DNA from: Sphingobacterium corticibacter
Lineage (GTDB): Bacteria; Bacteroidota; Bacteroidia; Sphingobacteriales; Sphingobacteriaceae
Length of the DNA stretch: 64,000 nucleotides
Assembly (NCBI RefSeq): GCF_003076635.1
Contig: NZ_QDKG01000003.1
Location: forward strand, 186,001-250,000
Direction of reading: 5' to 3'
The notes below the pieces were generated by a model, which saw only the letters and a program-made list of their open reading frames with translations, did no database searches and was not told the DNA's origin. The translations under genes were made by a program, and so were the position numbers. Positions 32,452 to 60,468 of this stretch are shown here, piece after piece. Each line of letters opens with the position of its first letter. The stretch's first letter is position 1.

Positions 32452-35400
32452 TCAAAAATCAAATGATTCGTATTTTATAGTTTGATCCATAAATTCTTTT
32501 AGTCTTTGATGAGCAAATGGTCGTATAATTGTCTCGTATACTGTTTCAACTTCCGTAGATATCATTTTTGAAATTTCGAAAGTCTTTTTTCCAGAAATTC
32601 CGTTGATCGACGCCCCTAATCGCAAGCCCATTTTTTTATCATATAATAAAAGGTATCTATCATGAAAAGGAGATTTTTTACCTTGATTCTGTGCTCTGAT
32701 GAAAGTATTCTCTGGAGGATTATCAAGTGATTCTTCATACCATGCATCTTTATATGAACCTTTGGTAAAGTCCTCGTCTGGTTCTGCCTCTATACTACTT
32801 AAAACCGTAGTTGACGATTTATGACACCATTCGTCTACCTTCTTTAAAAAATGCATATCTCTCTTAGAAAAATATGGATCAACTATATAAATCTCTCTAG
32901 AATCACTATTTTTAACAAAGCTCTTAATAAAAGAGAATGCTTCGTCTTGCATCCCGGGATTAACAATTATACTGTTATTCCCTGTACCGATGTGATAATT
33001 CATTGCGCTAGAATTTTTGTTAGATATATTACAAATCAAGTTATAACATAACCTGCCATTGGCAGTCGCCGAATCATAAAGTGATAAAAGTAAATTGTCT
33101 TTATCGTCAGATTTAATAATATTCTCAATAAAAAACTCATACAAAGGTATTGAAAAGAAAAACGGCATAACTGATGCGGAATGTAGGAAAGAAATAGTTT
33201 CAGCATTATCTCTTGACTTTCTTTTGTCAGAATTAAGTTGTCCTAACAAACTCCAAGCTAGGTTAGATTTTTCACTTCTTTCCTTAATTTTACCAATATT
33301 GGAATAATCCGTTTGAGCCGAGTTTTCAAGATCAAGCTTTTCAAAATGATCATTCGCTGGTTCGGACATTTTTTTCCTTGCAGGGTCTGTATCAAGATTC
33401 GAGATTAATCGCTGAGCTATGTTTTTATCACATCTATAAGCAAGGTCGACAAGCTTTTTGAATGTTGGATATTGCTCGGTATCATCCAATTTATAAATAT
33501 CTCTTTCGACTATCTTTATATATTGATTAAACATTTCGATAGATGATTTAGAAACAAGCTCGAGAGCAGCTTCATACATTGATATTCTTTCTTTTATAGA
33601 TGGGATTTTTTCTATTTCTAAAAAAGCTAACTTATATAATTCGTTTCTCTTCTTTTTATTTGTTTCATATTCAGATCCAATATTAAGAAACACCACAGCT
33701 CTATCAGTAGTATTTTCAATAGCAGGCACCTGATTTTCAATTTCAGATAATTTTTTATTAATTTTTTCTAAGCTTGAATTATTAAAGACTTCTGTACAAG
33801 CTAAAGCACTTAATAAATAACCATCGTGTTTTATTCCCTTATCTTTATTAGGAAGCTTACGTTTGATCAAGTCTGTTAATTTTAAATATAAATCACCTTT
33901 TTGAATACGCGTAAAATTTGTCGGATTCGCTTTAGCTATTCTAGAAAGATTCCTAATGTAATGGTAAATCATAGAATCTGTCTCTGCATACTCTAAAAGT
34001 CCTAAATAATCAATTGCAGTTTGAAAAGTGAAATGAGCTGATCCACCTAATCCGTCATATGGATCTCTTTCATGACAGTTTGTGAGTAATACTGCAAAAA
34101 TAATCGGTAGAATTATCTCTTTTTCCTCAGTATTCATAGAGTTCAAGTATAATTCTAATGTGGCAGGCTGGGATAAGTGGATTGCTGAAGCGACTCGTGT
34201 CAACATTCTGAAAAAATCATCGTGGTTGCAATCCTTCTTATAACTATCCAACGTTGGCAATAATTTTGAACTCACTATTTGCTTCCCAAGATCAGTCTTA
34301 CCCGCTAAAGATAGGCGTACTGATAATTCAGCCCAGAGCATTAGTTGCTCACCTTTAGTAGGCACCTGTGTTATCAATGAAGATATCTTCTGATGGGTTA
34401 GATCATTACGCTTTACGAGGCCAGAAAATATTCTAATGGTTATTCGTATAGATTCGCACAGTAAGCCAAGATGTATCTCATCCTCAAATGTAGTATCCTT
34501 CGATGTACTTTCCGCTAAATCAAAATAATCTTCAGCTAAACATTTCTGATAACCACCTAGCGACGATGCAATTTTGTAGCCCATTTTAATTTTTTTTAAT
34601 GGGTTTTCTATTTTTGAGTAGTGATTTGATAAGAACCTATTGAGTTTTTCTATTAACCCATCATATCGAGGTACGTATTGAGGATTATTTGTTTGAGGCA
34701 TACCTAACAAAATAATACTAATAGATAACACACGACACCTAGCCTCATGATTTCCAATATTATCGATTAATGGCAGTAAATCAATTATAAACTTCTTATT
34801 GTTTTTAGATGTGTCCATCGATTCGTACAAACGAATAAAAACATGTTCTATTGCTTCAGATTTTAAACTTATAGACGATATCTGATTTATGAGATATTCG
34901 ATATCATCATATTGCCAAATTACAAATTCATTATCCAGATAAGATTCCAAACAACACAAATATGCTCTCTCTCTTCTTTTTAAAGTATTAAGCTTAGAAG
35001 AAATGTTAAGTGCAAATCCGAGATCGAATTTTGACAAAATTTGCAATGTAGTTTCAATCTCCTCATACTGATTCGCAATTGATTTTAAAAATACATCCAA
35101 AAGTTTATCCATTTCACTTTTAAGGAAATTTTCATCTAAGAGTATATCATCAAGATTAAGTCTTGGGTTTACTCTCATTTCGCTGTACATCCTTAATAGA
35201 TTAGAGTAGCTTTCTAGCTGTATACATACATCACCCTGATTATCAACAAACGAAATTAGATCTATAGTTCTATTATTTGCTAATTCAACATCCACATTCA
35301 TCAGTGCCTCTACAATAACAATATGAAGCATGACCTTTCCCACAGTTGGTGAATTTATATTGAGCATAAGCTCATCGACTCTCCTAATCATAGATTTAAC

Positions 35401-37410
35401 AAGATCCTCTTTTACAAAAAACTTTAGCGGAAAAACTATATCAAATAATGTTTCTGTAGAAGGTTTGATCGAAGAAGATTCCTGAGCTAATAAGTTTAAT
35501 GTAAAATCCATAATCTCTTTAATATTATAACAAGTGGGATTACCTTTTATCCATTTTCTCATTAGAAAAATACGATCAGAAGCCTTCTCCACTTTTTTAA
35601 TTTCATCGATTATTTCCTCTGGCATTACGTCGCTTATTCCGTAACCGATAGATTTCGCAAATTTGTCCACAAAGGACTCCTTTTTCGCAGAATCGTCTTT
35701 CATGCTAAGCGAGTCTTCATTCTGAATGTCTTGATTTTTATGGGCTATCATACCTATAATCCCCATTAGCCACTCTATTGAGTTATTATCAGATTTAAGA
35801 TTTAGAGCTTTTTCGATCACATTAATCGCTTCATTCGGTAAAAAGTACGCTAGACCAATGGCAACTTCCATCAAATTTTCCCTCAAATAGCTTGCATCTA
35901 CATCAGATAGAAGATCCTTGATTTCGCCAATAATTGCGGAATCCACTTCCTTCTTTTCTATCTTAGAATACTGAACGAAAAAAACAAGCATTTTCAATCT
36001 ATCTTCCTTTAAGACAGAATTCGTTATAATACTTAAAGCATCTTCAGGCCTATCAAGGACAATGTATGACCTAATTTTATTTTTTCTGATATCGCTTGAT
36101 TGTAATCCAGTAAGTACGCTGCGATGAAGCGAAAACCTAAATATTTCACCATAAGCATTTTTTATATTTTTTGCCGCTTTATATCCGTAATTAATTTGTT
36201 TTTTTATGTCAGAAAAGGACTTGCTATTAGAGATGATTAGGTCCAAATTATCTACAGTTAATAATTGCACTATGTTTCCCCATTCATTATTCTTTTGAAA
36301 CAAATTAGGCAAATGAAGAATTGAATTTAAGTCGTCAACTGTTGTATAGAAATTTATAAGCCTACTATTGGTCTCATTCTCAAATTGACCTAATTTATGA
36401 ATTGCAAATTGCCTATATGAGTTTGAAACAAATGTTACGTTATCCTCATTCTTAGTCAAAAATGAAATTTCTCCAATAGCATTCTCGACGTCAACTGGAG
36501 TAACATTTAAGATGCTGGCAATTCTATTTGTGCCTCTTACATTATCGTCGAAAGCAAGAACAGCAATGAGAAAAACCTTAAGAGATTCTAAATTTAAACC
36601 ATCTATATTGGCTCTCTTCCATTCAATATCTAATAAGTCATTTTTTTCGGAGATACTAAAATCTTTAAGAAAATCATCTTTAGATATACCGCTATCAATG
36701 ATCCGCTTTACCTGAGTCAAGCTTTCAGGGTGTCCCTTCCAGGTATCATGAACTTCACGTAGGAAAATTTGAGATTCGGTTGAATCATCTAACTCAAATA
36801 ACTTCTTTGTCTCTGACTCAGTAAATCTTGGGACACGTAGAGATTTTGAGTTTTTTAACCAAGGAATAGGAAGAATTTTTCTTAATTCTTCTAAATTTCC
36901 TGATATCAAAAAATAAAAATTATTAGTATTCCAAGGTAAATTTTGAAGGATGTTTTTGAGTAATTCAAAGTCAGATTTATCTATCTGATCCAGGGCGTCC
37001 AAAATGAAGTATACAGGCTTGTTTTTTCTTCCTGGACTAGTTGTCAAATCAAATGTCAACTTATTAAATACAGATTCATTGATGTCGAATTCCGCGGGCG
37101 CCGCTTCGTTTTTGTTGAAAAAATATAATTGTCTACCGATATCCTCCATTAAATAATCCTGCCTGTATGACGCTCTATAAGAAGGGTTAATAAAAAAACT
37201 TATGGAGTCGAATAAGTGTTTTTGAGCAAATTGTAACATTAGATCTGTCTTACCACCCGCTTCTTTTCCCTCTATTACAACTACTTTACAATCTTTCTCA
37301 AACATGTCCTCTATTTCATTAACGAGATTCATTCTCGGAATTCTATTTTCATCGAAGATATTTTGATAAGAAGGAGAAAAGCTCCTAAGCGTTACGAGTA
37401 CTGATTCCAT
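32452..37410 (-). CDS. Giant STAND/NACHT-like NTPase with C-terminal PLD-like domain
   Basis: The product has 1652 residues, from an ATG at 37410. Residues 25-370 form a STAND-type P-loop NTPase: Walker A 'GKEAGGKT' (48-55), Walker B 'VYFILDALDQI' (133-143), a 'YFLISGN' strand (166-172) and a winged-helix-like segment near 275-340. Residues about 370-1450 are almost wholly helical, with repeated helix pairs, as in TPR/HEAT sensor regions. The C-terminus holds a PLD-like fold: 'IYIVDPYFSKRD' (about 1507), 'FHDRYLLLYD' (His1583, Arg1585, Asp1591; HxK-like with Arg for Lys) and 'LGASINGIS' (Gly1599-Asn1603). Such a layout suggests a sensor-switch-effector defence protein, but with the effector at the C-terminus. 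The gene is AT-rich, alone on its strand, and lies in an island bounded by tRNA-Ser repeats. Function is inferred. Confidence 0.8.
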   Translation of the reverse strand: MESVLVTLRSFSPSYQNIFDENRIPRMNLVNEIEDMFEKDCKVVVIEGKEAGGKTDLMLQFAQKHLFDSISFFINPSYRASYRQDYLMEDIGRQLYFFNKNEAAPAEFDINESVFNKLTFDLTTSPGRKNKPVYFILDALDQIDKSDFELLKNILQNLPWNTNNFYFLISGNLEELRKILPIPWLKNSKSLRVPRFTESETKKLFELDDSTESQIFLREVHDTWKGHPESLTQVKRIIDSGISKDDFLKDFSISEKNDLLDIEWKRANIDGLNLESLKVFLIAVLAFDDNVRGTNRIASILNVTPVDVENAIGEISFLTKNEDNVTFVSNSYRQFAIHKLGQFENETNSRLINFYTTVDDLNSILHLPNLFQKNNEWGNIVQLLTVDNLDLIISNSKSFSDIKKQINYGYKAAKNIKNAYGEIFRFSLHRSVLTGLQSSDIRKNKIRSYIVLDRPEDALSIITNSVLKEDRLKMLVFFVQYSKIEKKEVDSAIIGEIKDLLSDVDASYLRENLMEVAIGLAYFLPNEAINVIEKALNLKSDNNSIEWLMGIIGMIAHKNQDIQNEDSLSMKDDSAKKESFVDKFAKSIGYGISDVMPEEIIDEIKKVEKASDRIFLMRKWIKGNPTCYNIKEIMDFTLNLLAQESSSIKPSTETLFDIVFPLKFFVKEDLVKSMIRRVDELMLNINSPTVGKVMLHIVIVEALMNVDVELANNRTIDLISFVDNQGDVCIQLESYSNLLRMYSEMRVNPRLNLDDILLDENFLKSEMDKLLDVFLKSIANQYEEIETTLQILSKFDLGFALNISSKLNTLKRRERAYLCCLESYLDNEFVIWQYDDIEYLINQISSISLKSEAIEHVFIRLYESMDTSKNNKKFIIDLLPLIDNIGNHEARCRVLSISIILLGMPQTNNPQYVPRYDGLIEKLNRFLSNHYSKIENPLKKIKMGYKIASSLGGYQKCLAEDYFDLAESTSKDTTFEDEIHLGLLCESIRITIRIFSGLVKRNDLTHQKISSLITQVPTKGEQLMLWAELSVRLSLAGKTDLGKQIVSSKLLPTLDSYKKDCNHDDFFRMLTRVASAIHLSQPATLELYLNSMNTEEKEIILPIIFAVLLTNCHERDPYDGLGGSAHFTFQTAIDYLGLLEYAETDSMIYHYIRNLSRIAKANPTNFTRIQKGDLYLKLTDLIKRKLPNKDKGIKHDGYLLSALACTEVFNNSSLEKINKKLSEIENQVPAIENTTDRAVVFLNIGSEYETNKKKRNELYKLAFLEIEKIPSIKERISMYEAALELVSKSSIEMFNQYIKIVERDIYKLDDTEQYPTFKKLVDLAYRCDKNIAQRLISNLDTDPARKKMSEPANDHFEKLDLENSAQTDYSNIGKIKERSEKSNLAWSLLGQLNSDKRKSRDNAETISFLHSASVMPFFFSIPLYEFFIENIIKSDDKDNLLLSLYDSATANGRLCYNLICNISNKNSSAMNYHIGTGNNSIIVNPGMQDEAFSFIKSFVKNSDSREIYIVDPYFSKRDMHFLKKVDEWCHKSSTTVLSSIEAEPDEDFTKGSYKDAWYEESLDNPPENTFIRAQNQGKKSPFHDRYLLLYDKKMGLRLGASINGISGKKTFEISKMISTEVETVYETIIRPFAHQRLKEFMDQTIKYESFDF

Positions 37411-38522: not shown

Positions 38523-40193
38523 ATGGATTTTAATCGAATATTTGGCTTACTAAAAATAGAGCCTTCAGAAGCGCTAGAAAGTGAAGTAATAGAGTTTAAA
38601 AACTTCAAGGATTCTGCTGCATTGTTTAACTCAAAAGATCTATGTAATGAAATTGTAGCCTTTGCAAATACCTTTGGAGGTCACGTGATAATAGGTGTGA
38701 GAGATAGTTCTGAATTGACATCAACAAATTACGTCGATCAGCTTGTTGGATTTGATAATGTTGACGTGGACGTAACTAAGGAACGTTTATTAGGTAGAAT
38801 CAAGCCCAAAATCAATTTATCAATAACTAGCTTCGAATTTGAGAAGAAAAAATACCTTATTATAAGCGTTCAGAAAAATAAGAATTCGTTAGTAAGCACC
38901 TCTTCAGGGAAAGTCTACGTGCGAGAAGGCAAATCAAGTGTTCCCGCTGAGCCCGACCAAATCCAGACTTTAGTTCATAATTTACAAACCTATGATTGGA
39001 GTAGTCAAGAAATTGATGTGTCAGATTGGTTGTCTCTGATAAATAAAACTGCTTTAGGTGAAGCAAAAAGTGATTTTTGCAGAAGACGGGGTATTCTATT
39101 AGAGCATCTAGATGATGTATCATTTTTTGAGAGTATTGGCGGTACTAAAAACGGAATACTGAATTATTCAGGTCTCTTATTTTTGGGCACATCGGAAGCG
39201 ATAGAGAAATATTTAAGCAATTATGAATATAGGTTCTCATGGAAAACTGCTAATGGCATGTTACTCGTGAATGAAGTTTGGAATGATTGCGTTTGGAACT
39301 CAATTAAAAAAGTGAAGCGACATTTTGAGGAACTTAATAAGACTTTGGATTTTCAATACAAGGCAAATATTTATCATTTTTCACTATTAGACAGTCAAGC
39401 CTTTCATGAAGCATTTTTAAATTCTGTAGTGCATAGAGATTATTCGATAGATGGGATGGTTTCTATAAATTATGCAGGCGATGAGTTAATTATAACTAAT
39501 CCTGGACAATTTTATGGAGGAGTAAATGAGGAAAATATATCATTTCATGAACCAAGACATCGTAATAAAATTTTAGCAAAATTGCTAATGACTTTTGAGT
39601 TAGTTGATAGGGCTGGTATGGGAGTTCTTCGCATTGGATTAAACTCTTTAAAGTATGGTCGTGATTTTCCAGTTTGGAAGCAGAATTTAAATAATGTTGA
39701 AGTCAGAATGCCTTCTGAATACATCAAGCCTGGCATCTTCGTATTAACACAAAATCGACTTAAGGACTGTTCTCTTACAGAACTTCTATTATTGAATAAG
39801 CTTCATGAAGTAGGTTTTGTTAGTATTTCCGAATTAGAACGCGATCTCAAAAAGAAATATCGTGATCCTTGGAAAGAGATTGAGAAGGCATTAAACAATG
39901 AGGATCTAATTAATTACATCGAATTAAAAGCAAATAATCAAAACGTTTTTATTACGACAACGGAAGCTGGTGATATTGCTTTAGACGTTTCGCGAAAATT
40001 TAAAGCGACTACTAATAGTGAAAAGCACGTAAAGCTCTTCAAGCACCTAAAAAAACATAAGTCAGCGAATAACGAGGAGATAAAAAACTTATTGAAATTC
40101 TCAAGAGCAAGTGTGACATCGAATTTTCTTAGCAAATTAGAATACTTAAAAAATACAGGAAAAAGTAGAAGTAGTACTTGGAGCCTTAAATAA
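38523..40193 (+). CDS. Schlafen-type AlbA_2 / GHKL ATP-binding protein
   Basis: The product has 556 residues. The N-terminal AlbA_2 (Schlafen core) domain shows 'ESEVIEFKNFKD' (19-30) and 'LCNEIVAFANTFGGHVIIGVRD' (41-62). A GHKL-like ATPase region follows at about 290-385: 'FHEAFLNSVVHRDYS' (N-box), 'ITNPGQFYGGV', 'RNKILAKLLMTFELVDRAGMGVLRI'. The C-terminal third (about 415-556) has helix-turn-helix-like segments ('VSISELERDL', 'NNEEIKNLLKFSRASVTSNFLSKLEYL'). Proteins of this class are annotated as RNA-binding/ATP-binding regulators, and Schlafen-like AlbA_2 domains recur in defence islands. It lies inside the tRNA-Ser island, opposite in direction to the STAND gene. Role inferred. Confidence 0.82.
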   Translation: MDFNRIFGLLKIEPSEALESEVIEFKNFKDSAALFNSKDLCNEIVAFANTFGGHVIIGVRDSSELTSTNYVDQLVGFDNVDVDVTKERLLGRIKPKINLSITSFEFEKKKYLIISVQKNKNSLVSTSSGKVYVREGKSSVPAEPDQIQTLVHNLQTYDWSSQEIDVSDWLSLINKTALGEAKSDFCRRRGILLEHLDDVSFFESIGGTKNGILNYSGLLFLGTSEAIEKYLSNYEYRFSWKTANGMLLVNEVWNDCVWNSIKKVKRHFEELNKTLDFQYKANIYHFSLLDSQAFHEAFLNSVVHRDYSIDGMVSINYAGDELIITNPGQFYGGVNEENISFHEPRHRNKILAKLLMTFELVDRAGMGVLRIGLNSLKYGRDFPVWKQNLNNVEVRMPSEYIKPGIFVLTQNRLKDCSLTELLLLNKLHEVGFVSISELERDLKKKYRDPWKEIEKALNNEDLINYIELKANNQNVFITTTEAGDIALDVSRKFKATTNSEKHVKLFKHLKKHKSANNEEIKNLLKFSRASVTSNFLSKLEYLKNTGKSRSSTWSLK

Positions 40194-41020: not shown

Positions 41021-42073
41021 ATGAAGCGGATCTTATCGATCGATGGTGGCGGGATTCGGGGGATAATTCCAGGAATGCTTTTATTATCCATGGAGCAAAG
41101 ATTGCAAGAGAAAACCGGCAATCCCGAAGCACACCTTTCCGAGTATTTCGATTTCTTTGCAGGCACTAGTACTGGAGGTATTCTCACCGCTATCTTGTTA
41201 TGTCCGCATCCTGATGACGCCACTAAGCCGCGCTTTTATGCCAAAGAAGCTTTAGACATTTACTTAAAGTATGGCCCTGCTATATTCTCCACTACACGCT
41301 GGCGTCGTTTTCTTAGCAAGTTTGGCTTCCTGACAGAATTATATGATGCTAAAATTTTAGAGTCTATCTTAGATAAGTACTTTGGTGATGTCAAGTTGAG
41401 CGAACTGCTCAAACCGGCTATCATGACCGCATATAATATCGAATTACGTAAGAATCATATATTTCGACAGCAAAAAGCAATTTCACATGGCGACACGCGT
41501 GATTTCTATATAAAAGATGTTTGTCGCGCGACGGCTGCAGCGCCCACTTTTTTCTCCGTAGCCGAAATCTTCTCCATTGCGGGTACGCGATTCCCCTTAT
41601 TAGACGGTGGTGTATTTGCACATAATCCAGCCCTGAGTGGACTTCTGGAAATGCTTAAAACCTACGATACTTTTAAGATTGACGATGTTCATATTCTGTC
41701 ATTAGGAACTGGTGCAGCCAAAAATGTATACAATTACGAAGACTTTAAAAAGAAATGGGCGATCTCCATTGGCCCCGCTTTGGTAGACATTATGACTAGC
41801 AGTTCCTCCGAAAGCAATGACTTTTTCCTAAGACAATTATTTCGGTCCGTCAAAAAATCACGACAATACACGCGAATAGAACCTGCCAACGTATCCTCGA
41901 TATCCCAAGCAATGGACGATGCGTCTCCCGGAAATATTCAAAAGCTAGTCTCTCTCGCCGATAATGTAATTAGTGATTACGATGAAGTACTGAACAAGGT
42001 AGTAGATGACCTAATAATAGATAAGAAACAGCATAAAGACAATTCTATGTGGAATTTTCTTCGTAGGGATTAG
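41021..42073 (+). CDS. Patatin-like phospholipase
   Basis: The product has 350 residues and has a complete Ser-Asp patatin active site: oxyanion loop 'DGGGIRGIIP' (8-17), nucleophile 'GTSTG' (Ser50) and 'LLDGGVFAHNP' (Asp195). It likely hydrolyses acyl esters of phospholipids. The form resembles cyclic-nucleotide-activated CapV-type effectors as well as ordinary lipases, but no CD-NTase gene is next to it, so a CBASS role is not supported. It starts about 490 bp outside the outer island repeat. No signal peptide is present, so it is cytoplasmic. Confidence 0.9.
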   Translation: MKRILSIDGGGIRGIIPGMLLLSMEQRLQEKTGNPEAHLSEYFDFFAGTSTGGILTAILLCPHPDDATKPRFYAKEALDIYLKYGPAIFSTTRWRRFLSKFGFLTELYDAKILESILDKYFGDVKLSELLKPAIMTAYNIELRKNHIFRQQKAISHGDTRDFYIKDVCRATAAAPTFFSVAEIFSIAGTRFPLLDGGVFAHNPALSGLLEMLKTYDTFKIDDVHILSLGTGAAKNVYNYEDFKKKWAISIGPALVDIMTSSSSESNDFFLRQLFRSVKKSRQYTRIEPANVSSISQAMDDASPGNIQKLVSLADNVISDYDEVLNKVVDDLIIDKKQHKDNSMWNFLRRD

Positions 42074-43250: not shown

Positions 43251-43436
43251 ATGAGTGAATTAACATGGAAAGGCCGTTGGAACGAGCTTAAAGGAAAAGT
43301 AAAACAACAATATGGTAAACTAACTGATGACGATTTGACTTACGCAGAAGGTAAGGAAGATGAGTTGATCGGCCGTTTGCAAAAAGAAACTGGTAAAACC
43401 AAAGAAGAGGTTGAAACCTGGTTGAACAAACTATAG
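43251..43436 (+). CDS. CsbD-family stress protein
   Basis: The product has 61 residues from the ATG at 43251, preceded by a perfect AAGGAGG (43239-43245), unusual in this window, which fixes the start. 'WKGRWNELKGKVKQQYGKLTDDDLTYAEGKEDELIGRLQKETGKTKEEVETWL' is the complete CsbD domain. Members are small, highly charged, general-stress-induced proteins of unknown mechanism. It is closed by a strong terminator. Confidence 0.93.
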   Translation: MSELTWKGRWNELKGKVKQQYGKLTDDDLTYAEGKEDELIGRLQKETGKTKEEVETWLNKL

Positions 43437-43473: not shown

Positions 43474-43508
43474 AAAGTGCGGATTATATGTATAATCCGC
43501 ACTTTTTT
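43474..43508 (+). terminator. Strong rho-independent terminator after csbD
   Basis: A 15-bp perfect stem (43474-43488 AAAGTGCGGATTATA / 43491-43505) with a 2-nt gap in the palindrome centre and TTT after. Confidence 0.88.
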
Positions 43509-43696
43509 ATTATAAGAAACCGTACTAATACAGCCTCTTTAAGCCCAAACCTACATCACATAAATTTGTTATTTAATTTGGAAGGCTGCTTTCGCAAATA
43601 TCAAATACTGATGCAACCTTCTGTACGTTCGTTACCAAGAAGCGATATGGTGATCACAAAGAATGGAAAATAGACAATTTAGCAAGGGAGGTCACG

Positions 43697-44671
43697 ATGC
43701 AACTCACACAAATTAAAGAAACTAAAAACGATATCTTATCGTGTATTGGCCATACGCCACTCGTCCGATTCAATAAACTATTTTTAGAATTGAATGCAAC
43801 AGTATATGGCAAACTAGAAATGCTAAACCCCGGCGGGAGCATCAAAGATCGTACGGCACATAATATCATTCGCCATGCGATGAATCTTGGAAAGATAAAC
43901 GCTAATAGCGTGATTATAGAATCTACCTCTGGTAATATGGGAATTGGTTTGGCACGAATCTGTCATTTCTATGGATTAAAACTATTTTTAGTAACCGATC
44001 CTCACATCAATCCATTAGCAGAGAAGATCTTGCGCACCTTCAACGCAGAGATTGTGAAAGTGTCTACAGATGATGGTACGGGAGGTTATCTTAATTCTAG
44101 ATTGAAAAAGGTCGAAGAGCTACTACAGGCTATTCCAAATAGCTTCTGGCCAGATCAGTACCATAATATGGACAATCCGGCTGCACACGAGCAAACTTTT
44201 AAAGAGATTGTAGAAGATCTCGGGGCGGCACCCGATTACTTATTTATCCCGACCAGTACCTGTGGTACCTTGCGTGGATTTGCAGATGCGATCCAGCAAA
44301 TGGGCGTGCATACGCGCATTGTAGCTGTTGATGCAGAGGGAAGTTTGATTTTCAAAGACAAGCCAAGTCCACGTCTCATTCCAGGAATGGGCGCAAGTCG
44401 CAAATCACACTTCTTAAAACAAGATCACGTACACAATGTCGTACATGTGAGCGATACAGAATGCGTCGCAGGTTGTCATCAACTGCTTGCTCAGGAAAGT
44501 ATTTTGGCGGGTGGATCATCTGGTGCTGTCGTCAAGGCGATCGCTAGCTATCAACAAAAATTCTTGCCCGGACAGCAGATTGTGGCTATTATTCCAGACA
44601 ATGGGGAGCGCTATTTGGATACCATTTATTCAACAGAATGGTTAGAAAAACATGGTCTAAAAAAAGATTAG
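43697..44671 (+). CDS. SbnA-like PLP synthase (O-phosphoserine/glutamate type, 2,3-diaminopropionate pathway)
   Basis: The product has 324 residues of the cysteine-synthase fold type II. 'CIGHTPLVRF', 'LEMLNPGGSIKDRTA' (PLP Lys50) and 'ESTSGNMGIGLA' are shared with CysK. 'PNSFWPDQYHNMDNPAAHEQTFKEI', 'PTSTCGTLRGFADAI', 'LIPGMGASRKSHFLKQD' and 'AGGSSGAVV' with 'PDNGERYLDTIYS' follow the SbnA branch. SbnA condenses O-phospho-L-serine with L-glutamate to ACEGA on the way to 2,3-diaminopropionate. A good AGGGAGG site lies just upstream of the ATG. It is first in a three-gene operon with an FAD/NAD(P) protein and a PLP decarboxylase. No SbnB-type (ornithine cyclodeaminase-like) gene is present. Confidence 0.82.
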   Translation: MQLTQIKETKNDILSCIGHTPLVRFNKLFLELNATVYGKLEMLNPGGSIKDRTAHNIIRHAMNLGKINANSVIIESTSGNMGIGLARICHFYGLKLFLVTDPHINPLAEKILRTFNAEIVKVSTDDGTGGYLNSRLKKVEELLQAIPNSFWPDQYHNMDNPAAHEQTFKEIVEDLGAAPDYLFIPTSTCGTLRGFADAIQQMGVHTRIVAVDAEGSLIFKDKPSPRLIPGMGASRKSHFLKQDHVHNVVHVSDTECVAGCHQLLAQESILAGGSSGAVVKAIASYQQKFLPGQQIVAIIPDNGERYLDTIYSTEWLEKHGLKKD

Positions 44672-44681
44672 GGCGTAGCGT

Positions 44682-46523
44682 ATGATTTGGAAAAAAGAAC
44701 ATCTGTCTGCCGAAGCGAAACAGGCACCGAGCCTTATTAGCCATCTAATTACCAATATTGAGGAGCTCCATAGCCATACAAATCATAAAGACGCGAAACG
44801 TATTGGCATTGTTGGTGGTGGCCCAAAGGGGATGTATGCCTTGGAGCGCTTGCTACATACCGTGCAACAAGAGGCGTATGAAGAGCCTATACATGTTATC
44901 TGGTTTAATGAAAACCCACATTTTGGCAGTGGTAACAATTATTCGGTCTATCAACCTGATGATTTGCTCATTAATTACTGTATCGGCAATATTGATGGAT
45001 GGCTACGTGATGACATCAATGAGCAGGTACGCGAACAGCTTTCTCTACGAGACTGGATCGCCAAATATCAGACAACCGATTCGGAAGTAACTCCTACGGA
45101 TTTTGCTTCGCGCGGGTTAGTTGGTTTTTACTTACAGGATATCTTCATGCAGCTGCAGTCATCCCTGCCTCAGCAGGTCACTATATCGCTTATTGTGGCA
45201 GCTGTGCAAGACGTGTCATACACCAATCAATTCAAGATTTCTTTAGCAAATACCGATGACACTTTGTTAGTAGATTATCTCTTATTGGCAACGGGGCATT
45301 GTTACGAAAATGTTCCACCATTTAAGATCACAGGTGATACGGCGCCATTTGAGTATATGGCTAGCGCTTATCCGGTCAATCGCTTAGATGTTTTACCAAA
45401 AGGACAGTCAGTAGCTGTTATGGGACTCGGACTTACCTTTATAGATATCTGTTTGCAGCTGACCGAAGGGCGAGGTGGTGTTTTTAATGAGTTAGGCGAA
45501 TACATTCCATCTGGCGAAGAGCCTGTTATTTATCCCTTTAGCCGAAGCAATTTACCTATTCAGCCGCGCGGTCCAATATACGGAGATTCGCGTTATGCCG
45601 TTCGTGCATACACGAAGCAAGTATTGCAAACTCTAGTGGATGAAAGATCCGATCGAAAAATTGACTTTCAGCAAGAAGTATTACCAATTATTAATGAAGA
45701 AATACAGTTTGCATACTACAGCACATTACTAGAAACATCTTCCGAAGAAAAAGTAAAACAATATATCAACGGTCTACTTGCTGATGAAATTTTCTCGATA
45801 GATCAGTTATTGTTTCCAGTAATGAAGTCCTTAGGAGACCGACACCAAAGCACTAAAGCTTATCTTGATGAAAGCATCAAAAGGGCAGAGGAGGGCGAGT
45901 TGCATCATCCATACATGGCGGCGACTGCTGTATGGCGCGAACTAACGCCGCAGATTGGTGAGTTATATAACTTTGGTGGATTCACAGCAGAAAGTCACCA
46001 ATATCTAGATAAACAATTGTGGAGTGCATGCTGCCGCACCAGTTTTGGGCCACCAATCGCCAATATGAAAAAGATTAGCGCATTGGCCGAAGCTGGGATT
46101 ATTCAGTTTACGATTCCTCCGCAATCACAGATTAGCTACGATACCGACAAACAAAATTTTGAAATCGGAACAGAAGAAGAGCAATACACTGTATCCTTTC
46201 TGATCGATGGCCGTATTGCGCGCAGCGAAATTGTTCGAAAAAATTCTCCATTGTACGATCGCTTACTTGAACGTGGATTGATCGAGATTTTTGAGAATGG
46301 TACTTACCAGCCAGGTTGCATTGCTATCAAGCAAGATGGTAGAACTACGGCTAAAATTGATAATCAGGAGATTCCGCTTTTCTTCTATGGTACGCCGACA
46401 GAAGGCATATTATTTGATAATGACTCTCTTTCTAGGGTTCGAAACAATTTGGCTAGCCCCTGGGCAGACCGGATTCTACAATTAATCGACACACATGACA
46501 CTTACGCACAGCAAGAAAGATAA
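44682..46523 (+). CDS. FAD-NAD(P)-binding oxidoreductase (NAD_binding_9 type)
   Basis: The product has 613 residues. The N-terminal dinucleotide loop 'RIGIVGGGPKGMYALERLL' (40-58) is the FAD-NAD(P)-binding family signature. 'NYCIGNIDGWLRDD' and 'ATGHCYENVPPF' mark the first half, and a second Rossmann loop 'VAVMGLGLTFIDICLQLTEGRGG' lies near 245. The C-terminal third contains 'TSFGPPIANMKK' and 'FFYGTPTEGILFDND', conserved in this uncharacterised group. It could oxidise the amino-acid product of the SbnA-like enzyme, taking the place of SbnB, but this is inference. It starts 10 bp after the SbnA-like gene; its last 29 bp overlap the decarboxylase gene. Confidence 0.8.
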   Translation: MIWKKEHLSAEAKQAPSLISHLITNIEELHSHTNHKDAKRIGIVGGGPKGMYALERLLHTVQQEAYEEPIHVIWFNENPHFGSGNNYSVYQPDDLLINYCIGNIDGWLRDDINEQVREQLSLRDWIAKYQTTDSEVTPTDFASRGLVGFYLQDIFMQLQSSLPQQVTISLIVAAVQDVSYTNQFKISLANTDDTLLVDYLLLATGHCYENVPPFKITGDTAPFEYMASAYPVNRLDVLPKGQSVAVMGLGLTFIDICLQLTEGRGGVFNELGEYIPSGEEPVIYPFSRSNLPIQPRGPIYGDSRYAVRAYTKQVLQTLVDERSDRKIDFQQEVLPIINEEIQFAYYSTLLETSSEEKVKQYINGLLADEIFSIDQLLFPVMKSLGDRHQSTKAYLDESIKRAEEGELHHPYMAATAVWRELTPQIGELYNFGGFTAESHQYLDKQLWSACCRTSFGPPIANMKKISALAEAGIIQFTIPPQSQISYDTDKQNFEIGTEEEQYTVSFLIDGRIARSEIVRKNSPLYDRLLERGLIEIFENGTYQPGCIAIKQDGRTTAKIDNQEIPLFFYGTPTEGILFDNDSLSRVRNNLASPWADRILQLIDTHDTYAQQER

Positions 46524-47928
46524 TAATCACCTACCGCTTACACCGATCATACACCCATGGATCAAGGGTTTGGTGGCCAATGCATCATTATTACATGATG
46601 CTGTAGCAAAATTTAGTTCGCCACTTAACGTACAATCTTTAGTACCTTTTGAGGAAAATATTCGTGCCTTCAAGTCTATATTCGATAAATACCAGCTAAA
46701 ACACCGTGTTTATTTTGCGCGCAAAGCGAATAAGTGCGTTACCTATACCAAACAGGCCGCAAAACTTGGCGAAGGAGTCGATACCGCTAGTTTTGAAGAG
46801 CTCGCGCAATGTCTGGAAGCAGGCATCAATCCGGCGCAACTAATATCAACCGCTGCCGTAAAAACGCAGCGATTGATGGAATTGGCGGTAGACAACCATG
46901 TGACGATCATCATCGATAATCTGGATGAACTTGCTTTGTTGGAAAAGGTCACCGAAAGTACGGGCAAGCAGGCCAACATTAGCCTGCGTGTAGGTGGTTT
47001 TACGATGGATGACCGTACATTGCACACACGATTTGGTTTCTCCATTTCGCATGCTCAAAAGTTGATATTGGAGAACTTAGCGCATCACCCGATGCTTAAC
47101 TACGTGGGTTTACATTTCCATCTGAATGGCTATTCCATTCCAGAACGTGCCGCCGCTATCGGACAATGTATCCAGCTCATTGATTTGCTCGCAGCGCAAA
47201 ACGTGAAAACTTTCCACTTGGATATTGGCGGTGGTTATCTCGTAAATTATTTGTCAGATCGCTCAGAATGGGAAAACTTTCATACCGAGCTCAAGCGCGC
47301 CCTACTAAATAAGCGCTCTGAATTGACGTATCGTAATGATCCTTTAGGAATCGTGAAGATCGAAGATACGCTACATGGCGAAGCCAAAGTGTATCCGTAC
47401 TACAATGAAGTGCACAAAGAAGGATTTTTAGAAAGTGTATTGGCGAGTAACGTACAAGGATATGACCAGCCCATCCATCAGTTGTTGCGAGATCGCGAGA
47501 TTGAAATGCGTATCGAACCAGGAAGATCACTTTTGGATCAGACGGGTATCACCGTAGCGCGCGTAGCATTTCGCAAACATGATTCTGATGGAAACCTACT
47601 AATCGGATTGGAGATGAATCGTACTCAGATGAAGAGTTCTAGCGCCGATTTTCTATTAGATCCGATTCATCTGCCGCAGAATTCAATCGACTCTTACGAT
47701 GGTGAACAAGAAACCTTTGGTTATTTGGTAGGTGCTTATTGTTTGGAACAAGAATTTATTCTACTCCGCAAAATCAAGTTTCAAGCGATGCCAGTCGTAG
47801 GGGATCTACTAGTTTTTGTGAATACCGCCGGCTATATGATGCATTTCTTCGAATCGCAAGCGCATCAATTTGCACTAGCAGAGAATGTGTTTTACGAGGA
47901 AAATGAGAGGTTTAGCTTAGATAGTTGA
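46495..47928 (+). CDS. Y4yA-type fold-III PLP decarboxylase
   Basis: The product has 477 residues. It is an alanine-racemase-fold (type III) PLP enzyme of the diaminopimelate/ornithine decarboxylase group. 'YFARKANKCVTY' carries PLP Lys77. 'GVDTASFEELAQCLEAGI' and 'HFHLNGYS' line the cofactor pocket, 'FHLDIGGGYLVNY' binds the PLP phosphate, and 'RIEPGRSLLDQTG' follows. 'FVNTAGYMMHFFESQAHQF' is near the end. The set fits the Y4yA-like branch known from rhizobial plasmids, whose substrate is unknown. Decarboxylation of an ACEGA- or diaminopropionate-derived amino acid would fit the neighbours. The start overlaps the upstream gene by 29 bp, so translation is probably coupled. Confidence 0.85.
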   Translation: MTLTHSKKDNNHLPLTPIIHPWIKGLVANASLLHDAVAKFSSPLNVQSLVPFEENIRAFKSIFDKYQLKHRVYFARKANKCVTYTKQAAKLGEGVDTASFEELAQCLEAGINPAQLISTAAVKTQRLMELAVDNHVTIIIDNLDELALLEKVTESTGKQANISLRVGGFTMDDRTLHTRFGFSISHAQKLILENLAHHPMLNYVGLHFHLNGYSIPERAAAIGQCIQLIDLLAAQNVKTFHLDIGGGYLVNYLSDRSEWENFHTELKRALLNKRSELTYRNDPLGIVKIEDTLHGEAKVYPYYNEVHKEGFLESVLASNVQGYDQPIHQLLRDREIEMRIEPGRSLLDQTGITVARVAFRKHDSDGNLLIGLEMNRTQMKSSSADFLLDPIHLPQNSIDSYDGEQETFGYLVGAYCLEQEFILLRKIKFQAMPVVGDLLVFVNTAGYMMHFFESQAHQFALAENVFYEENERFSLDS

Positions 47929-47930
47929 TC

Positions 47931-48219
47931 GGCTTCGCAAAGACGATACCTTCGTCATTATGAGGAGGCACGACATCCCCGTCATTACGAGGAGGTACGA
48001 CGAAGTAATCTTCATTATTGTATAACACCTAGCATGGCAATAGATTGCCGCAGCCTCGTTCCTCAGCTTCGCAAAGACGATATCCCCATCATTACGAGGA
48101 GGCACGACGAAGTAATCTCCCTTGTAGAATAATGTGAAGAATGATACGAGATTGCCGCAGCCTCGTTCCTCGGCTTCGCAAAGACGTTGATTTAGTCATT
48201 TACGAGGATGAACGACGAA
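47931..48219. repeat. REP-like mosaic repeat cluster A
   Basis: About three related units fill the space between two genes. Each is built of a left arm (consensus GTCATTACGAGGAGGCACGA), a short unique loop and a right arm (GCCGCAGCCTCGTTCCTCGG ... CTTCGCAAAGAC) that is its imperfect reverse complement. The best-preserved copies lie at about 47980-48077 and 48087-48186. The same family occurs at 60152-60468. Confidence 0.8.
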
Positions 48220-60151: not shown

Positions 60152-60468
60152 ACGTCATTGCGAAGCCGAGGCACGAGGCTGCGGCAATCTATCGAGCTTA
60201 TTAACCCTATCAACTCTCTCAACCTTATTAACTAAAAAACGAAGCTACGGCAATCTCTGATTTGTTTCCATTAAGTGGTTGAGATTACGTCGTCGTGTCA
60301 CCTCGCAATGACGAAGAGAAGTAAGCGAGAATCTTACAAAACCACGTCATTGCGAAGCCGAGGCACGAGGCTGCGGCAATCTTAAAACTATGTTGTGTCG
60401 CAGGTTTAAATGTTTGTTGTCTATGATCCACTTTTAGATTGCGTCGTCGTACCTCCTCGCAATGACGG
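60152..60468. repeat. REP-like mosaic repeat cluster B
   Basis: Two units of the same family as cluster A: arms CGTCATTGCGAAGCCGAGG ... GGCTGCGGCAATC at 60152-60190 and 60344-60382, with reverse-complement arms ending CCTCGCAATGACG near 60301-60313 and 60454-60467. These fill most of the non-coding space between the sus locus and the convergent GH32 gene; the remaining bases to 60695 show no gene. Confidence 0.8.

Follow-up and report, generated by a model that had tools for sequence, protein, structure and literature searches.

A three-gene cassette joining SbnA-type and Y4yA-type PLP enzymes to an N-hydroxylase-like flavoprotein in Sphingobacterium corticibacter and other bacteria

Three adjoining genes of Sphingobacterium corticibacter, encoding an SbnA-type synthase, a flavin-dependent monooxygenase-like protein and a Y4yA-type decarboxylase, probably form a biosynthetic cassette that is complete in itself and builds one small molecule. 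In our judgement the odds are even that an SbnA step, an N-oxygenation and a decarboxylation together yield an ethylenediamine-type amino acid with an oxygenated nitrogen, which would more probably serve as a stress metabolite inside the cell than as a metallophore. The genes lie on the forward strand of a 64,000-nucleotide stretch of contig NZ_QDKG01000003.1 (hereafter the window), part of a 3.9-Mb genome that is 99.6% complete. The SbnA-type fold II PLP synthase gene (43697..44671, 324 aa; TIGR03945 and SbnA PDB matches) is followed by the gene for the FAD/NADPH-dependent monooxygenase-like protein, with a predicted class-B N-hydroxylase fold of the FzmM/CreE type (44682..46523, 613 aa; PF13454, 8CP2 profile and Foldseek), and then by the gene for the Y4yA-type fold-III PLP decarboxylase (46495..47928, 477 aa; Orn_Arg_deC_N). 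All three open reading frames are intact, with a gap of 10 bp between the first two and an overlap of 29 bp between the second and third, and our reading of them agrees with the coordinates and spacings given in the original prediction.

The trio is conserved as a unit well beyond this genome. A scan of genome contigs with the FAD protein alone as query yielded 80 loci, 73 of which carry all three genes in the order SbnA-FAD-Y4yA on one strand (in two of the 73, one gene is truncated where the contig stops), so the arrangement is not a product of chance. Two of the seven exceptions (L101 and L141) are cut by contig ends, and in L090, L091, L093, L120 and L145 the FAD gene is present without Y4yA; some Sphingobacterium species (L090, L091, L093 and G004) keep the FAD gene with neither SbnA nor Y4yA. 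Mirror-tree distance correlations among the three proteins are 0.86, 0.83 and 0.87, with none of 999 permutations as high, and median gaps across trio loci, taken from first-start reading frames, are -4 and -11 bp. The claim that the three genes act together is thus upheld by conserved order and correlated divergence, and the worry attached to it, that they might not be conserved together, was examined and finds no support in these loci. SbnA and FAD are moreover fused into single reading frames of 936-957 aa at seven loci (L112, L115, L119, L125, L129, L131 and L135), suggesting at least two fusion events, in Gracilimonas (Balneolota) and in a group of Flavobacteriaceae.

By our count the hosts span at least five phyla, with representatives in Bacteroidota, Balneolota, Chloroflexota, Alphaproteobacteria and Actinomycetota, and the trio is plasmid-borne in Sulfitobacter and Tsukamurella. 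The FAD protein of S. chungjuense is 81% identical to that of the window. A full Y4yA match was found in 10 of 37 genomes of the genus, with a remnant in one more (G013), and the FAD protein in 10 of the 395 genomes sampled from the phylum, which makes the trio a patchy, accessory unit. A literature search for this trio found no paper.

The product of the first gene passes the SbnA equivalog model TIGR03945 with 391.7 bits (cut-off 349.95), while its scores of about 215-223 bits with cysteine synthase models fall under the cut-offs of those models. So wide a margin in favour of SbnA speaks against the other refuting possibility named in the original prediction, an enzyme confined to making cysteine. 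Its best PDB matches are the SbnA crystal structures 5d84-5d87 (E 8e-79). The PLP lysine, K50, is kept in all 65 operon homologues, as are R135 and Y155, and S187 is kept in 63 of the 65; the last three are counterparts of SbnA R132, Y152 and S185, which the SbnA structure work of 2016 reportedly found to be essential for O-phosphoserine recognition. TIGR03945 scores among the operon homologues run from 391 to 425 bits, with the actinobacterial proteins slightly under the cut-off. The model score and the O-phosphoserine residues bear out the earlier placement of this gene in the SbnA branch, and the predicted reaction of the enzyme couples O-phosphoserine with an amino acid through the amino group of the latter. 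It shares with SbnA of staphyloferrin B biosynthesis the equivalog family by the NCBI cut-off, the O-phosphoserine residues and the PLP lysine. Unlike the staphyloferrin B system, however, the genome has no SbnB partner (OCD family, PF02423) anywhere, nor NIS synthetases or siderophore genes; the operon homologues are 46-72% identical to one another, and their partners form a clade of their own.

The second gene had been described as an FAD/NAD(P) protein, and a match to PF13454 (NAD_binding_9) agrees with this. A search with the single protein sequence found 8CP2 at E 2e-29, and a profile of the operon FAD homologues aligned with 8CP2 over its full length (residues 4-569, E 2.4e-72). Foldseek comparison of an AlphaFold2 model (pLDDT 92.6) likewise gave 8CP2, with TM scores of 0.77/0.79 for this predicted structure (0.75-0.79 for 8CP2 and 8CP5 together), whereas the next solved folds, those of SidA, PvdA, FMOs and BVMOs, reached about 0.46 or less over the query. 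On profile and modelled fold, the FAD protein is assigned to the relatives of N-hydroxylating monooxygenases, with FzmM as the closest solved relative. On its fold we reject an SbnB-like enzyme or a simple dehydrogenase, and the suggestion that the FAD protein simply stands in for SbnB is not supported.

8CP2 is an L-aspartate N-hydroxylase, and in class-B monooxygenases its N62, on flavin C4a, is either retained or exchanged for a similar residue (PMC10404684). Residue equivalences were counted along the HMM alignment, and conservation over 80 aligned sequences. N62 aligns with N98 of the FAD protein, which is present in 80/80, and W51 with Y87. R13 aligns with K49, whose conservation in the scanned loci holds by construction, because the scan pattern contained GPKG; N98 and the remaining residues are unaffected by that pattern. 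The anion-site residue R266 corresponds to R296 (Arg in 73 and Lys in 7 of the 80), and R409 to R419, conserved in only 57 of 80. The aspartate-site residues R412, N413 and R416 are replaced by T422, P423 and G426, a loss of three aspartate-binding residues. Since the protein retains the part that activates oxygen but has lost the aspartate pocket, we infer an N-oxygenase for a different amine; the protein appears N-hydroxylase-like, yet the missing pocket residues keep us from classing it as an aspartate N-hydroxylase. In sum of likeness, the FAD protein and the L-aspartate N-hydroxylases FzmM/CreE (8CP2, 8CP5) have full-length homology, a three-domain fold, FAD and NADPH sites, the flavin-facing Asn and the first anion-site Arg in common. 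They differ in that identity is 22%, the three pocket residues are gone and R13 is Lys, and in that the FAD gene adjoins SbnA and Y4yA partners instead of a CreD-type lyase. No CreD/FzmL-type lyase was found in the window or conserved beside the trio, there being no conserved extra enzyme across the loci.

The third gene, which the original prediction had named a Y4yA-type decarboxylase, warrants that name: its Pfam family is Orn_Arg_deC_N, and its product is 42-43% identical to Sulfitobacter proteins that RefSeq calls 'Y4yA family PLP-dependent enzyme'. Identity to Y4yA of Sinorhizobium NGR234 is 28-30%. The PLP lysine K77, H209, the GGG and EPGR motifs, C416 and E418 (Cys-x-Glu) and Y447 are invariant in 65/65 homologues, and by these residues the protein is identified as a fold-III PLP decarboxylase with its catalytic set complete. 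NGR234 y4yA and its kin share with it the decarboxylase family, the catalytic residues and an adjoining SbnA/CysK-like gene, but they form a separate clade, and the NGR234 type occurs with an opine dehydrogenase, IucA/IucC and an MFS gene. A literature search on the chemistry or activity of Y4yA decarboxylases found no paper.

From these assignments we propose the following chemistry. The SbnA-type enzyme, as its family implies, would eliminate the phosphate of O-phospho-L-serine and add the amino group of an L-amino acid, possibly glutamate by analogy with SbnA, to give an N-(2-amino-2-carboxyethyl)-amino acid. The FAD/NADPH enzyme, judging by its fold and conserved catalytic residue, would oxygenate a nitrogen of this product, and the Y4yA-type enzyme, given its family and intact catalytic residues, would decarboxylate the alpha-amino acid end that stems from serine. 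The last two steps could occur in either order, although the SbnA-FAD fusions favour an FAD enzyme acting next to SbnA, and the outcome would be an N-oxygenated ethylenediamine-type amino acid. Class-B folds also take in enzymes that carry out no N-hydroxylation, an observation that counts against the oxygenation step.

We also compared the trio with related clusters, since the original prediction had tentatively linked it to a metallophore. Homologues of Y4yA occur in Sinorhizobium NGR234 with an SbnA-like gene, IucA/IucC, MFS and opine dehydrogenase genes; in Aureimonas (pAU20b) with an SbnA-like gene, OCD, MATE and iron ABC genes; and in Mycobacterium avium pMAH135 with an SbnA-like gene, OCD and MATE. 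These clusters resemble those for rhizobactin and EDDS, the latter type being exemplified by the Amycolatopsis aes genes. Like the trio, EDDS-type clusters (Amycolatopsis aes, M. avium pMAH135, Aureimonas pAU20b) combine an SbnA/CysK-like enzyme with a Y4yA-type decarboxylase, a pair that implies an ethylenediamine core. They have an OCD-type enzyme, however, in the place of the FAD monooxygenase that is present in all trio loci, and they include a MATE exporter and metal uptake genes that are missing from the window. The Y4yA enzymes of the metallophore-like clusters form a clade separate from that of the trio with support of 99/99, in a tree whose branches are long and whose outside members are few. 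With TIGR03945 the SbnA-like proteins that accompany them reach 235-239 bits, far short of the SbnA cut-off, and they carry other residues at the position of Y152 or of S185.

Within the genome, domain searches found no IucA/IucC (PF04183), OCD/SbnB (PF02423) or NRPS condensation (PF00668) domain, so that the absence of NIS synthetases and NRPSs noted earlier for the vicinity extends, together with that of SbnB, to the whole assembly. Across the loci compared, no exporter, receptor or transporter is conserved with the trio, and no regulator or reductive-amination enzyme stands beside it. Given these absences from the genome and from the conserved neighbourhood, a metallophore reading of the trio is not supported; what stands of that claim is that Y4yA relatives elsewhere belong to aminopolycarboxylate metallophore-like clusters. 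The neighbourhood comparison that had been proposed in order to look for transport or siderophore genes found none conserved, and the recurrent neighbours were stress genes instead. Taken as a whole, the original prediction was right that the cluster is real and unusual, and named two of its three enzymes correctly, but its SbnB replacement and its metallophore found no support.

No further gene accompanies the trio in a majority of the loci, and most trio loci are without a nearby stress gene. The neighbours that do recur are a long KatE-type catalase, a stress-type SDR, a topoisomerase IB, an alpha-amylase family protein and a response regulator, and further MscL, MscS, YetF and YtxH/DUF2383. 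The 710-aa recurrent neighbour that had been considered as a TonB receptor is the KatE-type catalase. The 50 trio genomes hold 35 long catalases, ten of which lie inside the trio locus of roughly 17.7 kb (10/50 genomes) against 0.13 expected. Over about seven independent arrangements this association, which was noticed after the fact, has P 1e-10, or 6e-8 when corrected for about 630 gene families. The csbD family has 6 of its 65 copies near the trio (6/50 genomes; 0.24 expected), a link that, corrected on independent arrangements alone, reaches 0.07 and does not survive. The frequent stress-gene neighbours suggest that the trio helps cells to survive stress and not to capture iron; because most loci have no such neighbour, the link is a lead and not proof. 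A stress metabolite is nonetheless more likely than a secreted metallophore, because exporter, receptor and assembly enzymes are absent and general-stress genes often adjoin.

Several other readings of the trio have to be weighed against this one. The FAD enzyme might take over the task of SbnB by oxidatively cleaving the secondary amine of ACEGA to L-2,3-diaminopropionate and 2-oxoglutarate, either in the manner of an amine oxidase or via a nitrone formed by N-oxygenation and then hydrolysed, after which Y4yA would decarboxylate diaminopropionate or a derivative. The FAD gene does occupy the place that SbnB, an OCD-family enzyme or an opine dehydrogenase takes beside related SbnA/Y4yA pairs, the genome has no OCD/SbnB homologue, and the fusions set FAD directly after SbnA. 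We nevertheless regard this route as unlikely: the fold and the catalytic Asn mark an N-oxygenating monooxygenase and not an amine dehydrogenase or oxidase, and genes that would use diaminopropionate (NRPS or NIS synthetase) are neither conserved beside the trio nor present in the genome. An aminopolycarboxylate metallophore of the EDDS/rhizobactin kind, in which an N-(2-aminoethyl)-amino acid made by SbnA and Y4yA would be turned by the FAD enzyme into a finished chelator, secreted or recycled, draws on the Y4yA homologues of the NGR234, Aureimonas and M. avium clusters, whose contents match the rhizobactin and EDDS structures. It becomes distinctly unlikely in view of the separate clade of those decarboxylases, the low scores and altered residues of their SbnA-like partners, the stress-gene neighbours and a trio that comes with no exporter, receptor, regulator or reductive-amination enzyme.

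We give little credence to a supply of nitrite or N-oxide, by which the FAD enzyme would act on a free amino acid in the manner of CreE/FzmM and the N-oxidised amine would be the nucleophile for the SbnA-type enzyme, yielding a nitroso- or hydroxylamine-containing product. The fold shared with the enzymes of the aspartate-nitrosuccinate route speaks for it, as do alanosine clusters, where diaminopropionate has been discussed alongside CreE/CreD homologues (PMC11705231). Against it, the CreD/FzmL-like lyase is not conserved with the trio, and the aspartate-site residues of 8CP2 are exchanged in the FAD protein. Ordinary cysteine and lysine metabolism, with the outer two genes as an extra cysteine synthase and an extra diaminopimelate decarboxylase beside an unrelated flavoprotein, would account for the distant similarity to CysK and LysA. 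It is hardly credible, given that the scores fall far under the cut-offs for CysK and LysA, that the genome has further PALP and LysA-like genes elsewhere, and that the three-gene linkage is conserved over five phyla, with fusions.

Returning to an N-oxygenating cassette, we tentatively suggest a broader possibility. The product of the trio may belong to a class of N-oxygenated amino acid, of ethylenediamine or beta-aminoalanine type, that has yet to be described, and may serve within the cell as a stress metabolite, with three unrelated redox enzymes (OCD, opine dehydrogenase and FAD N-oxygenase) exchanged in an SbnA-decarboxylase framework to give different products. If true, three genes in at least five phyla would encode an undescribed route in which O-phosphoserine is used to form a C-N bond, a flavoenzyme oxygenates nitrogen and a PLP enzyme decarboxylates. 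An SbnA-decarboxylase framework used with interchangeable redox enzymes would also mean that automatic pipelines labelling such genes 'siderophore biosynthesis SbnA' are misleading. From the association with catalase and other general-stress genes follows a concrete and testable prediction, a new stress metabolite.

In the window itself, a csbD-family general-stress gene (43251..43436, forward strand, 61 aa; PF05532, 67.8 bits) lies directly upstream of the trio and is the sole copy in the genome. Alignment with L070 and L071 showed the same csbD flank in these two nearest relatives. An Rfam scan near the operon gave no riboswitch or other RNA element at gathering scores, and a promoter scan around it returned as many matches as shuffled sequence. 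Between csbD and the trio, we read on the forward strand a terminator-like hairpin, AAAGTGCGGATTATA-TG-TATAATCCGCACTTT followed by a T run (43474..43509), which a consensus scan with a loop limit of 3-8 had missed. The hairpin is kept in the three relatives, and this conservation suggests that csbD and the trio are transcribed separately rather than co-transcribed.

The recurrent pairing of the trio with a long KatE-type catalase takes an identical layout, with equal spacing, in Sphingobacterium rhinopitheci and Kaistella haifensis (loci L074 and L075), which suggests that the arrangement has been transferred between families. Immediately 5' of the trio, at window 43251-43436, lies a csbD-family general-stress gene that is the sole copy in the genome and whose placement is kept in both closest relatives. 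The 3' side is directly followed by a tandem repeat (window 47924-48215) with a 107-nt unit, copies 82% alike and the core GAGGAGGYACGACGAAGTAATC; a third copy lies inverted at window 60437-60458. This repeat looks like a REP-type element.

The trio is not always complete. Several Sphingobacterium genomes (L090, L091, L093 and L066) retain the FAD gene without those for SbnA and Y4yA, and in L066 both the motif lysine (now GPFG) and the flavin-facing asparagine (N98 to H) are altered. Genome G013 holds a decayed trio (L050 8918-9490), in which the FAD gene survives as a remnant matching query residues 399-510, and Y4yA as a fragment of 48 residues.

SbnA-like and Y4yA genes also occur together in other settings. 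Sinorhizobium fredii NGR234 pNGR234a (L035 9001-15618) carries ParB-like, Y4yA, SbnA-like, opine dehydrogenase, IucA/IucC and MFS genes within a type III secretion region, a set that we take to be the one expected for rhizobactin. The SbnA-like, OCD, Y4yA and MATE genes on the Mycobacterium avium plasmid pMAH135 (L040 6274-11765) form an EDDS-like cluster.

Elsewhere in the window, a patatin-like phospholipase gene (41021-42073) matches PADLOC phospholipase effectors (E 2e-61). On its 5' side are a gene for an AlbA-type protein of 556 aa (38523-40193) and a 1652-aa ORF (32452-37410) whose product begins with a P-loop-like segment and resembles PLD in its C-terminal part, possibly constituting a small defence region.
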